From: Deltaproteobacteria bacterium
GTDB taxonomy: Bacteria > Desulfobacterota > Binatia > UBA12015
Direction of reading: 5' to 3'
Assembly (NCBI GenBank): GCA_016874795.1
Contig: VGTG01000054.1
Span: 1-33,480 of the forward strand
DNA: 33,480 bases
Both the position numbers and the translations under genes were made by a program. Positions 2,320-31,961 of this stretch are shown piece by piece (position 1 is the first letter of the stretch; every line of letters begins with the position of its first letter). A model generated the notes under the pieces. It saw nothing but the letters and a program-made list of their open reading frames with translations. It did no database searches and was not told the DNA's origin.

Positions 2320-3595
2320 GCTGGGAGAGAGGCTTCTTCGCCGGTCCAATCAGGAGCTGGGGCACGTAGAAGCCGGGCGACTCCTCGGCGGCGGCTTCGG
2401 CTTCCGCGAAGCTCCCCGAAGCGATGTTGACGTTGTACGAGAGCACGCGCGCGCCCTTGGGTGCGAGCTCGGGATGGGCCTTGACCGCGTACGCGATGTA
2501 GCGCGGGCAGGGCGCTTGCTCCGGCGGACAGTCCGAGCGCTGCGCGGTGCTCCACGGCGCGGGGAGCCGGTAGACGGCGCCCTCGTCGCGCCACGGACCT
2601 CTCAGGTCGCCCGCCGTGTAGAGACGGACGTCGAACTCGAGCGGCGGGATGCGGTAGCTGTACCAGCCGACGTCCGGATCCCAGTCGACCGTCGCCTCCG
2701 ACGTGCCGGGAAGGCCGCCCACGCGGTGCAGGCGCTCGAGATCGAACGCGCCGAAGCGGCGACGTCCCGTGCGCTCGTCGGTCAGGAGGTAGTCGGCCTT
2801 CGGCGGCCACGTCGCGGCGGCCATCTCGGTCACCGGGAAGCGCGCGAGCACGGTGCTCGAACCGGTCGCCTCGCCGAGCTGGCCGAGGAGGTAGACGTAC
2901 TTCCCCGCGGGAACGATCGCCGTCGTCCAGACGAGGTTCGGCAGCGGTCCGTCGTAGGCGCGGAAGTGCGGCAGGTCCCAGCGCCGGATGCTCCACTCCT
3001 CCGGCGAGTCGTCCGGATTGTCGATGCGCAGGAGGACGTTGCCGACCGGCGCGAGCCCGCTCTCGGGCGTGTTCCGGTTCGCCGTGACGTAGAGGTAGGG
3101 CCCGACGCGCGCGCCGGCGAGCGGCCAGAGGAACGTCCCGTCGTCCGACGGGAACATGTCCCTCGGCTCGCCGCCCGACGTGGGCCAATACTTGACGACG
3201 CGCCGGAAGGCGCCGTCCGAAGCGCGCGCGGAGATGCCGACCGAGTTGCGGATCATCGCGCGCTCCGGCTCGGGCTCGACGCGGCGGTCGCAGTACTCCT
3301 CGCCGCCCGGGCAATCGTCGCGGACGCTGCCGAGCAGCGTGTCGCCGAAGAGCCATGCGTAGCGGTCCTGGCCGAGCCGGATCGAGCTCGCGACGTCGGC
3401 GCCGAGCCAGCTCGGTCCGCACTCCTCGGGATACGGATCGACGAGGAACTGCAGCGGCGGCGCGGGCGTGAACTGCGCGGACGGCACTGCGGGCGGAGGT
3501 CCGGCCCAGAGCGGGGCGCTCTCGGGGCGCCGCAGCGGCGCGCACGCCGCGACGAAGAGGAGAAGGACGAGTCCGAGCGTTCGCGAAGCGCGCAA
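2312..3595 (-). CDS. Lipoprotein with DUF4185-like propeller domain
   Basis: About 427 residues. The N terminus is a lipoprotein signal peptide: a hydrophobic LGLVLLLF run, then lipobox VAAC. The mature part carries a segment reading RYAWLFGDTLLG and later blocks of beta-strand type with Trp/Tyr/Gly, which resembles DUF4185, a family related to five-bladed glycosidase-like propellers. Start choice: a strong GGGAGG sits 5 nt before a TTG at 3595. A GTG at 3601 would instead give a GTGA overlap with the upstream aminotransferase stop (3598-3600), but the ribosome site would touch it. Either way the two genes are translationally linked. The stop falls inside the 17-bp minisatellite. Probable role: anchored in the envelope, perhaps binding or cleaving a glycan; this is inference. 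Confidence 0.75.
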   Translation of the reverse strand: MRASRTLGLVLLLFVAACAPLRRPESAPLWAGPPPAVPSAQFTPAPPLQFLVDPYPEECGPSWLGADVASSIRLGQDRYAWLFGDTLLGSVRDDCPGGEEYCDRRVEPEPERAMIRNSVGISARASDGAFRRVVKYWPTSGGEPRDMFPSDDGTFLWPLAGARVGPYLYVTANRNTPESGLAPVGNVLLRIDNPDDSPEEWSIRRWDLPHFRAYDGPLPNLVWTTAIVPAGKYVYLLGQLGEATGSSTVLARFPVTEMAAATWPPKADYLLTDERTGRRRFGAFDLERLHRVGGLPGTSEATVDWDPDVGWYSYRIPPLEFDVRLYTAGDLRGPWRDEGAVYRLPAPWSTAQRSDCPPEQAPCPRYIAYAVKAHPELAPKGARVLSYNVNIASGSFAEAEAAAEESPGFYVPQLLIGPAKKPLSQRP

Positions 3596-6424: not shown

Positions 6425-6534
6425 GGCCTCCTCCAACCGACCCGGAAGGAAGCAACCGTGGCGCCAGCCGCGCGGACGGTGCCGTGCAGCCCATTTCGCA
6501 GGGAGGGACCGACGCGTGATCGCTCCGTGGGCAG

Positions 6535-6562: not shown

Positions 6563-8119
6563 TCAGCCGGAGCGGAGGCGATAGATGCGGATCACCGGAC
6601 CGCGCCGCTCCGTTCCCGGCGCGAACTGCTCGACGAGCTGCCCCTTTCGAAAGAGCTTCCGGTAGAACGCGACCTCGCGCGGGTAGCGAGCCGGCTCCGA
6701 GAGATAGCGGCCGTAGACGGAGCTCGAGACCATCGCGATCTCGAAGCCCGCCTGCTGCAGCGCTTCGGGAGTCTCGGCCATCTCCGTCAGCGAGAACGCG
6801 TACCGCGGCGCGAGCGGCGTGTCCTGCAGCGGCGCGCTGTAGAGCTCGGCCGCGATGGGCTCCGAAGGATCGAGGTTCTCGCGCGCCCAATCGCGTGCGA
6901 TCTGCTTCGTGCTCGGTGCTCCCTGCAGGAGCGCGAAGTCGAGGTAGCGGAGTGCAGGCATCGTGCTCACGGCTGCGACTGCGGCAGCGACGGCGAGTCC
7001 TCTGGCTCTCCCGTCCGCGAGACCGAGTCGCAGGGCGACCGCGTTCACGACGGCGACGAGAGCCGCCGCTCCGAGCAGCGCGATCAGCGGCAGGATCTGG
7101 ATCAGCCAGCGGGCCCAGTGGAGCGGAGAGATGCTGATCCCGATCAGGAAGATCGCGACGAACTCGAGGAGCAGGAGAGCGCCGAGGTTCCGCCGCCAAG
7201 CGGAGAGGAGCGCGCAGCCCGCGGCGAGCACGAGCACGACCGGCGACAGGGCGCGCGGCATCGCGTAGCCGAAGTACCAGGCGAGGTTCCCGAAGAACCC
7301 GAAGCCGTCCGCGCCGGGATGCGACGTGCGCGCTTCGTGCGCGAGGTCGGCCTGGACGCGTGCGATGTCCGTCACGAGGTAGGGAGCGGCGAGAAGGAAC
7401 CCGATCGGAATCGCGACGAGACCGAGGAGGAGCGCGCTCGGCCGTTCGCCTTCCGCGCGGCTCGTGTCCGTCGAGCGCCGGCGCAGCAGGAGAGCGGCGT
7501 CGACCGTCAAGAGCACCGGCACGAGCGCCACGAGGAAGTACCGCGTCGCGACCCCGAAGCCGATGACGAGTCCCGCAACGGCGTGCGCCGCACGGGTCGG
7601 CCGGTCGAGAAGCCGCACGCACGCCCAGAGGCCGAGGACGCCGAAGAAGAGCCCCGCCGTGTCGGTCCGCACCATCATCGCGTGGTCGAGAGCGAGGGGA
7701 GAGAGGAGCGACAGCCACGCGCCGACGAGCCCGACCGGCGGCCCGAACACGCGATCGCCGATCGCGCACACCACGACGAGCGAGAGCAGCGCGTACGCGA
7801 TCGAGAGCACGCGCCCGACGACGAACGGCGCGGTCGGGCTCTGCGCGAAGCGGTCGGCGAGCGCCGGATCGGCGCTGAGCCACGAGCCGCTCTCCGTCGC
7901 GCCGAGCGCGTGCAGCCCGAGGGCGTACGGGTAGAGGAGCGTCGAGCCCGGATGGCCGAACCAGTGCGGATCCGGATCGCCGGCCGTCGCCATCTGTGCG
8001 GCGATCAGGAAAAAGCGCACCTCGTCGCTGTGCGGGGCGTGCGGAAGATCGCGGCGGACGCCCCAGAGATGGGTGAACGCCGCGAAGGCGAGGAGCGCGG
8101 CGAGAAGCAGGCGTCGCAT
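6563..8119 (-). CDS. GT39/PMT-like membrane glycosyltransferase
   Basis: About 518 residues with a hydrophobic N-terminal helix and some ten predicted membrane segments. After the first helix comes HAPHSDEVRFF, with the acidic residue that GT-C enzymes of the ArnT/PMT (GT39) group carry in the first extracytoplasmic loop. Next come HPGSTLLYPYALGLH and LDHAMMVRTDTAGLFF. A soluble C-terminal domain of about 120 residues closes the protein. Such enzymes transfer sugars from polyprenyl-phosphate donors to protein or lipid outside the membrane; donor and acceptor are not deducible. The ATG at 8119 opens directly on the first helix. It sits 47 bp after the PlsC-like gene and may be co-transcribed with it. 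A second protein of the same type lies at 22107-23639. Confidence 0.85.
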   Translation of the reverse strand: MRRLLLAALLAFAAFTHLWGVRRDLPHAPHSDEVRFFLIAAQMATAGDPDPHWFGHPGSTLLYPYALGLHALGATESGSWLSADPALADRFAQSPTAPFVVGRVLSIAYALLSLVVVCAIGDRVFGPPVGLVGAWLSLLSPLALDHAMMVRTDTAGLFFGVLGLWACVRLLDRPTRAAHAVAGLVIGFGVATRYFLVALVPVLLTVDAALLLRRRSTDTSRAEGERPSALLLGLVAIPIGFLLAAPYLVTDIARVQADLAHEARTSHPGADGFGFFGNLAWYFGYAMPRALSPVVLVLAAGCALLSAWRRNLGALLLLEFVAIFLIGISISPLHWARWLIQILPLIALLGAAALVAVVNAVALRLGLADGRARGLAVAAAVAAVSTMPALRYLDFALLQGAPSTKQIARDWARENLDPSEPIAAELYSAPLQDTPLAPRYAFSLTEMAETPEALQQAGFEIAMVSSSVYGRYLSEPARYPREVAFYRKLFRKGQLVEQFAPGTERRGPVIRIYRLRSG

Positions 8120-12078: not shown

Positions 12079-13239
12079 ATGGTTCGAGCCTACGCCATCA
12101 CCGCCGATGCGGTCGCCGCCGAGCGCGCCCGCGTGAACGACGACCTGGATCAGGTCGACATTTCCCGCGTCGTCCAGCTCGATTCGCTGGAGCTCCCGAA
12201 GATGGGGCCGAACGACGTCCACCTGCGGATCCTCGCAGCCTCGGGCGAGCACAACGTCGACCACGCGGCTCTCGCGGACACGGTCAACATCGCGCAGCTC
12301 CGCGGCGGCAAGATGTACCCGGGAAACTCCGCGCTCGGCGAGGTCGTCTCGGTGGGCGAGAACGTGACCCGGTTGAAGCCGGGCGACATCGCGATCACGC
12401 ACTGCAACGGCGACCCGGACCGATTCGGGTTCCCGCTTCGCATCTGGGCGTACGACAAGCCGGATTCGATCGGTTGGTATGCGGAGGAGAGCGTCGTCGG
12501 CGAGTGGCAGCTCATCCCCGCGCCGCTCGATTGCGGGCTGAACCTCTGGGAGATCGCGGCGCTGCCGCTCCGCGCGCCGACGGCGTACCACCTGTGGCGC
12601 CGCGCTCTCGGGATCTTCCGCGTCAAGGTCTCTCGCGAGCACCTCTCCGAGATCAACGTCCTCGGCTTCGGCGGCGGCGTGTCCGAGCTCTTCCTGATGC
12701 TCGCGAAGCACGAGGGCCATCGCGCCTTCTTCTGCTCCGGCAGCCCGGAGCGTCGCGCGGCGCTCGAGAAGCTGGGCATCACCGGCATCGACCAGAAGAA
12801 GTACAACCGCTTCGCCGGCCGCGACGACATCAAGGGCTTCACGGCCGAGGTGAAGAAGCTGACGGGCGGCGAGGGCATGCACGTCGTGTGCGACATGCTG
12901 CGCGGACCGGTCTTCCCGGCGGGCATCGCGGCTTCGGCGCGCCAGGGCGTGAACGTCAGCGCGGGCTGGCAGCTTTCGAAGAGCATCACGTACGACTCGG
13001 CGGGCGCGTCGGTGAAGCAGCTGACGCTCGATCACACGCACTACGAGACGCTGGTCGGCTGCGCCGCGGCGACGGAGCTCTACGGCAAGGTGTTCAAGCC
13101 GACCGTGCACAAGGAGATCTATGCGTTCGAGGATCTCCCGCGCGCGATGGTCGAGATGCACAAGAACACGGTGACCGGCATTCCGATCATCCGCATCGCG
13201 AAGGACCTGCCGGCCTCGGTTCGCTCGATCGCTCCCTGA
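12079..13239 (+). CDS. MDR-family reductase, crotonyl-CoA carboxylase/reductase-like
   Basis: About 386 residues. It has a GroES-like N domain (PKMGPNDVHLRILAASGEHN, MYPGNSALGEVVSVGENV, LKPGDIAITHCNGD), then RIWAYDKPDSIGWYAE, which parallels the RIWG...GGLAE region of crotonyl-CoA reductases, then a Rossmann fold with VLGFGGGVSELFLMLA. KKLTGGEGMHVVCDM and a C-terminal VEMHKNTVTGIPIIRI agree with that subgroup. No structural-zinc Cys cluster is seen. It is some 60 residues shorter than classical CCRs, so it may reduce another enoyl-CoA or quinone-type substrate without carboxylation. The hairpin just before the ATG may affect expression. The family call is strong, the substrate is not. Confidence 0.75.
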   Translation: MVRAYAITADAVAAERARVNDDLDQVDISRVVQLDSLELPKMGPNDVHLRILAASGEHNVDHAALADTVNIAQLRGGKMYPGNSALGEVVSVGENVTRLKPGDIAITHCNGDPDRFGFPLRIWAYDKPDSIGWYAEESVVGEWQLIPAPLDCGLNLWEIAALPLRAPTAYHLWRRALGIFRVKVSREHLSEINVLGFGGGVSELFLMLAKHEGHRAFFCSGSPERRAALEKLGITGIDQKKYNRFAGRDDIKGFTAEVKKLTGGEGMHVVCDMLRGPVFPAGIAASARQGVNVSAGWQLSKSITYDSAGASVKQLTLDHTHYETLVGCAAATELYGKVFKPTVHKEIYAFEDLPRAMVEMHKNTVTGIPIIRIAKDLPASVRSIAP

Positions 13240-29279: not shown

Positions 29280-29906
29280 ATGAAGCTCCCGTGCAGGACT
29301 CCGCTCCGACGCGCCTCCACCGCTGCCGTTGCCGCGATCGCCGTCGCGGCCGCCTTCCTTGCGGCGCCGCTTCATGCGGAAGCGCAACCTTCGGACAAGT
29401 GGCGCGACTATCGGCTCATCGCCTTCGCCGAGCTGGTCCTCGGCGCACAGAACAACCTGCCGGGGAACTACGCCGTCCTGAACCCGGGCGGCACGCTGGA
29501 GGTGCAGAACAACGCGGTCCAGCTCTCCGCTTCCCCGGCGCCGTACGTGGTCGCGGACTCGATCACGATGGGAGCGTTCTCTTCCGTCGTCGACGCCTAC
29601 TTCGATACCGAGCTGGATCTCGCGCCGTCCGCGCAAGTGACCACGCAGCATCCGGGGCAGCCGTTTCCGCTCGTGCTGAGCGACCTGCCGGCGACGCCGC
29701 CGCAGGTGTTCGATCCGTGCACGCTCTCCGAGCCGAAGACCGTCGTGCCGACGAACGGCAACGCGGCCTTCACTCCGGGCTGCTACGGCATCCTCGAGGT
29801 GCGCCAGGAGGCGAACGTCACGTTCGCGGGCGGCGTCTACTACTTCCTTCGCTGGGACATCCGCGACCAGGTGAGCATCACCTTCTCGGGTCCGGCGATC
29901 GTCTAG
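29280..29906 (+). CDS. Secreted protein, N-terminal part of the interrupted DUF4215-repeat protein
   Basis: 208 residues ending at TAG. It has a signal peptide (ASTAAVAAIAVAAAFLAAPLHAEAQ), then a Gly/Ala/Val-rich region that looks like parallel beta-strands: LNPGGTLEVQNNAVQLS, FTPGCYGILEVRQEANV and FAGGVYYFLRWDIRDQVSI. The frame stays open past the TAG straight into the next entry, and the peptide just before the stop (FSGPAIV) continues naturally as VRQEVSTQQLTSITPSSGDP, so the two are one gene. Start ATG at 29280 with GAGGA upstream. The interruption may be a real nonsense mutation, a read-through codon or a sequencing error. Confidence 0.8.
   Translation: MKLPCRTPLRRASTAAVAAIAVAAAFLAAPLHAEAQPSDKWRDYRLIAFAELVLGAQNNLPGNYAVLNPGGTLEVQNNAVQLSASPAPYVVADSITMGAFSSVVDAYFDTELDLAPSAQVTTQHPGQPFPLVLSDLPATPPQVFDPCTLSEPKTVVPTNGNAAFTPGCYGILEVRQEANVTFAGGVYYFLRWDIRDQVSITFSGPAIV
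29904..29906 (+). other. In-frame amber codon splitting an 894-codon frame
   Basis: TAG lies between ATC GTC and GTC CGC in one frame that is otherwise open from 29280 to 31961. The flanking peptide is consistent with one domain. The base after the stop is G, and no hairpin or selenocysteine-type element is obvious downstream. Confidence 0.85.
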
Positions 29907-29918
29907 GTCCGCCAGGAG

Positions 29919-31961
29919 GTGAGCACCCAGCAGCTCACGAGCATCACGCCGTCCTCCGGCGATCCGGATGATCTCTCGTTCTTCGTCGGCGCGGACGCCG
30001 GGCGCCGCTCCACGTTGAACGGCTTCAACACCTTCATCGGGACGTTCGTCGATCGGAACAATCCCGAGCTGAACCTCCGCCGCCAGATCGACTTCGTCGG
30101 CACGGCCGTCGCGATCGGCATCAAGCTTCGCGGGTCTCACGACGACCGTGTGCCGGCCTGCGGCGACGCAATCCTCGACTCGGGCGAATCCTGCGACCCT
30201 CCGGGCGACGCGTTCCCGCCGACGAGCAACGTCTGCCGGAACGACTGCACGTGCTGCGGCGACGGCGACCAGCAGCCCGGCGAGCTCTGCGACGACGGCA
30301 ACGGCAACAACGCCGATTCCTGCCGCAACAGCTGCACGCGCTGCGGCGACGGCGTCGTGCAGGCGCAGTTCGGCGAGATCTGCGACGACGGCAACACGAA
30401 CGACGACGACAGCTGCGACAACACCTGCGCTCCGCCGGTCGAGGAGGAGTGCGGTAACGGCGTCGTCGAGGCGCCCGAGTTCTGCGACGACGGCAACCAG
30501 AACGACGACGACGCCTGCCGGAACGACTGCACCGCGTGCGGCGACGCCGTCCTGCAGTCGAGCGAGGGCGAGAGCTGCGACGACGGGAACCTGAACGACA
30601 ATGACGCGTGCCGCAACGACTGCACGCGCTGCGGCGACGGCGATCTCCAGGCCGGCGAGTTCTGCGACGACGGCAACGGCAACAACGCCGACGGCTGCCG
30701 GAACGACTGCTCCGCGTGCGGCGACGGCATCGTGCAGGGCGGCTTCGGCGAGATCTGCGACGACGGCAACCTGAACAACGCCGACGCTTGCCGGAACAAC
30801 TGCACGCCGTCCAACGACGAGGTGTGCGGCAACGGCATCGTCGACGACGACGAGTTCTGCGACGACGGAAACATCGTGAACACGGATTCCTGCCGCAACG
30901 ACTGCACCGCCTGCGGTGACGGCGCGCTGCAGGGTGCCGAGGCGTGCGATCCTCCGGGCAGCTCGGTCGACGGCGCGACCTGCCGCAGCGACTGCACCTA
31001 CTGCGGCGACGGCGTCTCGCAGCCGGGCGAGGCTTGCGAGCCGCCGGGCTCGCTCGCCGGTCCGAACCCGAGCGTCTGCCGCGACTCGTGCGATTTCTGC
31101 GGCGACGGCGTCGTGCAGCAGGAGTTCGGCGAGAACTGCGACGACGCGGACGGGATCGACGACGACACCTGCAGCAACCAGTGCCTGCCGAGCGTGGTCG
31201 TCGGCTGCGGCAACGGCGAGGTCGACCCGGGCGAGTTCTGCGACGACGGGAACACGAACGACGACGACGCGTGCCGTAACGATTGCACCGCGTGCGGCGA
31301 CGGCGAGAAGCAGCCGGGCGAGCAGTGCGACGACGGCAACGAGGTCGACGACGACGCCTGCTCGAACGAGTGCGTGCTCACGTCCTGCGGCGACGGCAAC
31401 GTCGACCCGGGCGAGTTCTGCGACGACGGGAATACGAACGACGACGACGCCTGCCGGAACGACTGCACCGCGTGCGGCGACGGCGAAGAGCAGCCGGGCG
31501 AGCAGTGCGACGACGGCAACTCCAACAACGGCGACTCGTGCCGGAACGACTGCACCTCGCCCCTCTGCGGCGACGGCAACGTCGACCCGGGTGAAGCGTG
31601 TGACGACGGCAACGAGGTGAACAGCGACTCGTGCCGGAACGACTGCACGTTCTGCGGTGACGGCGAGGAGCAGCCCGGCGAGTCGTGCGACGACGGGAAC
31701 CAGAGCAATCTGGATGACTGCCGGAACGACTGCACGTTCTGCGGCGATGGTGTCGTGCAGCAGCAGTTCGGTGAGGTCTGCGACGATGCGAACGACATCG
31801 AGACGGACCTGTGCTCGAACGTCTGCGCGATGATCAACCAGCCGCCGCCGCCCCCGAGCTTCTATCGAAAGAAGCCGTGGGGCCGGAAGTACTTCCTCGG
31901 CGACATGCCGCCGCGCGGCGGTGGACAGCCGACGATGCGGGTGCCGCTCCCGCGCGGGTAG
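29919..31961 (+). CDS. DUF4215-type Cys-rich repeat protein, C-terminal part
   Basis: 680 residues from GTG at 29919, in the same frame as the preceding entry; a GGAG touches that GTG, too close to be a good ribosome site. The first 75 residues finish the beta-rich domain (DDLSFFVGADAGRR, FIGTFVDRNNPELNLR). Then come 18 tandem repeats of about 28-37 residues with four Cys each, consensus CGDGxxQPGExCDDGNxxNxDxCRNDCT. This is the DUF4215/myxococcal Cys-rich repeat, thought to be extracellular and disulphide-bonded with acidic, possibly Ca2+-binding loops. The repeats end at about 31830, followed by a Pro-rich, basic tail (NQPPPPPSFYRKKPWGRK) with no membrane helix. A REP-like element follows the stop. 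Confidence 0.85.
   Translation: MSTQQLTSITPSSGDPDDLSFFVGADAGRRSTLNGFNTFIGTFVDRNNPELNLRRQIDFVGTAVAIGIKLRGSHDDRVPACGDAILDSGESCDPPGDAFPPTSNVCRNDCTCCGDGDQQPGELCDDGNGNNADSCRNSCTRCGDGVVQAQFGEICDDGNTNDDDSCDNTCAPPVEEECGNGVVEAPEFCDDGNQNDDDACRNDCTACGDAVLQSSEGESCDDGNLNDNDACRNDCTRCGDGDLQAGEFCDDGNGNNADGCRNDCSACGDGIVQGGFGEICDDGNLNNADACRNNCTPSNDEVCGNGIVDDDEFCDDGNIVNTDSCRNDCTACGDGALQGAEACDPPGSSVDGATCRSDCTYCGDGVSQPGEACEPPGSLAGPNPSVCRDSCDFCGDGVVQQEFGENCDDADGIDDDTCSNQCLPSVVVGCGNGEVDPGEFCDDGNTNDDDACRNDCTACGDGEKQPGEQCDDGNEVDDDACSNECVLTSCGDGNVDPGEFCDDGNTNDDDACRNDCTACGDGEEQPGEQCDDGNSNNGDSCRNDCTSPLCGDGNVDPGEACDDGNEVNSDSCRNDCTFCGDGEEQPGESCDDGNQSNLDDCRNDCTFCGDGVVQQQFGEVCDDANDIETDLCSNVCAMINQPPPPPSFYRKKPWGRKYFLGDMPPRGGGQPTMRVPLPRG
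31206..31565 (+). repeat. Recent 180-bp duplication inside the Cys-rich array
   Basis: The DNA encoding repeats 12-13 (from 31206) and 14-15 (from 31386) is nearly identical over some 130 bp, with only scattered third-position changes, at a period of 180 bp (60 codons). Other repeats are more diverged, so this pair duplicated recently. Confidence 0.7.

Follow-up and report, generated by a model that had tools for sequence, protein, structure and literature searches.

An in-frame TAG in a bacterial gene for a cysteine-rich repeat protein: most likely a recent nonsense change or a base error

The interrupted gene

We analyzed a stretch of 33,480 nucleotides (here referred to as the window) that constitutes all of contig C54 of its source genome, G000 (6.27 Mb in 360 contigs). 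A single reading frame at 29280-31961 encodes 208 residues, meets an in-frame TAG at 29904-29906, continues for another 684 residues, and closes with a terminal TAG at 31959-31961 (Table 1). The internal TAG is present in the G000 assembly, confirming the observation made in an initial annotation of the window. The start codon, ATG at 29280, is preceded by AGAGGA, a GAGG-type sequence. Judged by eye, the upstream part of the gene opens with a signal-peptide-like segment and passes into a beta-rich domain.

Table 1. Features of the interrupted gene, in window coordinates
Feature	Position	Strand	Remarks
Open part 5' of the stop (208 codons), with a signal-peptide-like start and the initial two thirds of the beta-rich N-domain	29280..29903	+	Signal-peptide-like start judged by eye
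12-mer GCGATCGTCTAG, ending in the internal TAG	29895..29906	+	
In-frame TAG	29904..29906	+	Both orthologues (G001 and G002) have Tyr (TAC) at this position; three N-domain paralogues of G000 have Y, F, and N
Remainder of the N-domain, 3' of the stop	29907..30173	+	From alignment with relatives
Cys-rich repeats (TIGR02232/DUF4215), about 18 units	30158..31840	+	Boundaries approximate, by eye
C-terminal tail, resembling that of both orthologues, and terminal TAG	31841..31961	+	Start approximate

The repeat part places the protein among the DUF4215/myxo_disulf_rpt repeat proteins. It matches TIGR02232 (myxo_disulf_rpt) with 262.9 bits (E = 5.4e-80; cut-off, 20.8) and PF13948 (DUF4215) with 168.6 bits (E = 3.2e-50; cut-off, 27), both far above the cut-offs. 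For the N-domain of this gene, Pfam gives no separate match. No paper in the literature collection searched names DUF4215. Across G000, the Cys-rich repeat has 88 matches on 23 contigs, and a stop lies inside 0 of the 88; the 14 control genomes contain no match.

Among six aligned relatives of the N-domain, five show weak matches to DUF7305 (best E, 3.4e-7), and pAdhesive_15 is matched by one. An AlphaFold model built from a shallow set of three sequences, the gene and two relatives, is partly confident (mean pLDDT, 52.4), and a single-sequence fold of the protein reached a pLDDT of only 39.8. In the three-sequence model, the TAG position corresponds to residue 174, within a strand spanning residues 171 to 181, in a part with block means of 78 to 87. 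A Foldseek comparison of the model with the PDB returned nothing at E ≤ 0.001, and a sequence search of the PDB gave no match at E ≤ 1.

One gene and a private stop

Two genomes from the same genus as G000, namely G001 and G002, carry syntenic orthologues with stop-free open frames of 1,061 and 1,077 codons and N-part identities to the window gene of 56% and 55%, respectively. Because these orthologues are continuous across the site, their gene neighbors are conserved, and the C-terminal tail is similar too, the two halves of the window frame belong to one gene and do not adjoin by chance. The N-domain itself runs on past the stop, with residues 36 to 298 aligning with orthologues and paralogues. 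The initial annotation had described one gene with one in-frame TAG and no other damage, and the continuous orthologues and intact frame bear this out.

A division into two genes, with GTG 29919 as the start codon of the second, would draw on the placement of that codon four codons past the stop and on an AGGAGG that overlaps it. However, the AGGAGG leaves no spacer before the GTG, and such a division would break up a domain that runs uninterrupted in both orthologues. The downstream protein would, moreover, contain 73 cysteines and lack a signal peptide. Re-initiation at 29919 as a second gene was rejected on the evidence of the continuous G001 and G002 orthologues, and we consider a two-gene arrangement very unlikely.

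The stop is private to this assembly. A model of the whole N-domain yielded 96 matches in 58 genomes, with a stop in two of them: the window TAG and one TGA in G001. This TGA is internal to an N-domain paralogue of the sister genome, at G001 C7:165197-165805 (minus strand). Conservation of the stop among relatives, expected of programmed read-through, was not seen among the 96 matches. The gene instead has the marks of a nonsense-interrupted gene, namely a continuous orthologue and a sense codon in the stop column, here Tyr in both G001 and G002.

Preservation downstream of the stop

Cysteine is kept at 72 of 72 downstream columns in which both orthologues have Cys. Identity to the columns common to both orthologues is 77% downstream versus 62% upstream of the stop. 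If constraint had ended at the stop, the 72 kept Cys codons would cap the neutral divergence accumulated afterward at about 1.6% (95%); only 0.56 further downstream stops would be expected per 1% of such divergence. The initial annotation counted 18 repeats with a kept Cys pattern, and our motif count of 18 agrees. It went on to argue from this pattern for continued translation, yet a stop younger than about 1.6% neutral divergence would be expected to leave the same pattern; the pattern bounds the age of the stop and does not show translation. Given the lack of decay elsewhere in the gene, the change is either young or a base error in the assembly.

Other interrupted genes in the genome

The sampled part of G000 contains at least five interrupted genes, the window gene included, four with TAG and one with TGA. 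A paralogue of lnt on contig C17 (minus strand) has a TAG at 3397-3399 in place of the conserved Trp of WPES; the four other lnt copies above the cut-off in G000 are all stop-free. An NTP_transf_5 gene on C24 is interrupted by a TAG at 6601-6603 near the start of the domain match, which extends only ten residues upstream of it. In these two families, chosen for counting because a stop was already known there, a stop occurs in 1 of 44 lnt copies above the cut-off and in 1 of 12 NTP_transf_5 matches in 14 genomes. A sensor histidine kinase on C8 has a probable internal TAG at 12462-12464, in a column with no settled residue. Finally, a gene on C19 (minus strand) carries a TGA at 6513-6515 in place of the second Cys of a haem-type CxxCH motif; a homologue has Cys at this position.

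These genes came from two kinds of scan. Homology scans, in which a listed row was kept only if homology and coding signal were present both before and after the stop, and was otherwise dropped, gave four interrupted genes in 1.59 Mb of G000 (three without the window gene) and two in 0.8 Mb of G001, both TAG and one of them weak, with only 42 open codons upstream of the stop (C88). A coding-potential scan of 793 kb with a composition filter gave 31 candidate stops, of which 30 (all except the window stop) were submitted to Pfam. A domain match spanned the stop in 2 of the 30 (lnt and NTP_transf_5); the other 28 had no spanning Pfam match and mostly resemble junctions between genes. Since Pfam was applied to roughly half of the 1.59-Mb sample, the counts of interrupted genes are lower bounds. 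The density, approximately 2.5 per Mb, is similar in the samples of G000 and its sister.

One-step nonsense paths, computed from G000 codon usage, end in TAG in 65.5% of cases, in TGA in 20.8%, and in TAA in 13.7%. On this basis, four TAGs among five interrupted genes are expected (P = 0.44), and the excess of TAG needs no special mechanism.

In-frame stops are described in PMC7918605 as widespread in bacterial genes and mostly persisting on the scale of population polymorphism, which fits the present case. The window gene resembles such young pseudogenes and nonsense polymorphisms in its single in-frame stop, the intact frame after it, its intact relatives, and its shallow age; it differs in that the window stop is known from one assembly only. 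The authors also argue that read-through occurs at many in-frame stops, a point that allows some room for this alternative here.

How UAG is read in G000

Natural UAG recoding, by pyrrolysine, amber suppressor tRNAs, or code changes in phages, is like the present case in joining an in-frame UAG to conserved coding sequence after it. It differs in that no matching tRNA, synthetase, or release-factor change was found here and UAG serves as a terminator. RF1 is intact in G000, and TAG ends 257 of the 1,065 genes predicted in the 1.59-Mb sample (TGA, 783; TAA, 25). No amber suppressor tRNA with a CUA anticodon is among the 44 tRNAs found (no CTA/CUA among the ARAGORN anticodons), a list that is not complete, since Ile-GAT and Ala-TGC tRNAs were not found. 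A pyrrolysine system was sought through PylS, for which G000 has a single match, of 26.5 bits, far below the cut-off of 178.15; sub-threshold matches alone were likewise obtained in 12 of 14 control genomes. The matches listed for the AMP-binding family (28 of 47) and the P450 family (26 of 32) have no internal stop, that is, 0 of 54 listed matches out of 79.

Genome-wide reassignment or efficient suppression of UAG, one of the options in the initial annotation, would account for the four internal TAGs in the G000 sample, but it is contradicted by the intact RF1, by TAG as a regular terminator, by the lack of CUA among the tRNAs found, and by the stop-free listed matches, and a dominance of TAG among nonsense changes is expected anyway. 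The pattern by which reassignment would be recognized (UAG unused as a terminator, RF1 lost or changed, and many in-frame UAGs) is not that of G000. Together with the PylS result, these findings led us to reject a changed code or a suppressor tRNA, and we regard this reading as extremely improbable.

Because RF1 is intact, TAG terminates genes, no CUA anticodon is among the tRNAs found, no PylS match passes the cut-off, and the listed AMP-binding and P450 matches are stop-free, UAG behaves as an ordinary stop in this organism, and we infer that it terminates at 29904-29906. RNA structure downstream of the TAG shows nothing unusual beyond chance (z = -0.78), and a downstream recoding structure was dropped as a candidate.

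A 12-mer shared by two internal TAGs

The 12-mer GCGATCGTCTAG has exactly two copies in the whole genome, one in the window gene (Table 1) and one at C17:3397-3408 (minus strand), and both sit at internal in-frame TAGs, the second in the lnt paralogue. The probability of finding the same three codons just ahead of the stop in two of five interrupted genes is about 7e-4, judged after the match had been seen. In the remaining three interrupted genes, the pre-stop context differs from GCGATCGTCTAG. The codon triple GCG-ATC-GTC is common, with 82 in-frame occurrences among 310,040 codons of a 1.19-Mb sample. The 9-mer GCGATCGTC is also frequent, occurring 192 times in 1.19 Mb of G000 versus 67 times in 0.8 Mb of G001. 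The coincidence of GCGATCGTCTAG could reflect a shared context for error or mutation, leaky reading at this context, or luck.

Leaky reading would make the TAG a site of gene-specific amber read-through, with UAG partly decoded to give a little full-length exported protein in addition to the short fragment. The downstream half without decay and the occurrence of GCGATCGTCTAG at internal TAGs of two otherwise intact frames (the latter with its post hoc probability) favor this reading, but the stop is conserved in no relative, the contexts of the three other interrupted genes differ, downstream RNA structure is ordinary, and a CUA anticodon is absent from the 44 tRNAs found. We consider it unlikely; apart from the context coincidence, noticed after the fact, the read-through proposed in the initial annotation gained no positive support. 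A more specific version, in which GCG-ATC-GTC-UAG is partly read through with no dedicated suppressor tRNA, so that both the window gene and the C17 lnt paralogue yield a truncated as well as a full-length protein, seems to us quite improbable.

Interpretation

The best explanation, to which we assign a probability of roughly 85% as a whole, is that either a nonsense substitution of recent origin or a base error accounts for the TAG at the conserved Tyr codon of one gene. It includes the views that the intact gene specifies an exported protein with a signal peptide (by eye), a beta-helix-like N-domain, and about 18 disulfide-rich repeats, and that the window gene is one of the nonsense-interrupted genes that make up an ordinary background in G000 and its sister. 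Recent nonsense mutation and sequencing error were both among the options of the initial annotation. The TAG is probably a real mutation, in which case the change appears to be recent; a base error in the assembly is a lesser, though appreciable, prospect. Weighing against this explanation are the well-kept downstream half, the recurrence of GCGATCGTCTAG, the incomplete tRNA list, and the reliance on one assembly.

Under the substitution-or-error explanation, a Tyr codon conserved in the orthologues would have become TAG in this one assembly. With UAG acting as a stop in this organism, translation would mainly yield a fragment, 208 residues long before processing, that is exported and has a broken N-domain. 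As modeled, the fragment would end within a strand of the beta-helix-like domain. The Cys-rich repeats would be lost or made in traces, and would not be exported.

If read-through were true, this would be a bacterial surface protein dosed by amber leakage with no suppressor tRNA. Finding the Cys pattern intact beyond a stop is weak evidence of translation, and most nonsense changes in the GC-rich genome studied here are expected to produce TAG. The window gene is most likely a case of ordinary recent mutation or sequencing error and not of a novel decoding of the genetic code.
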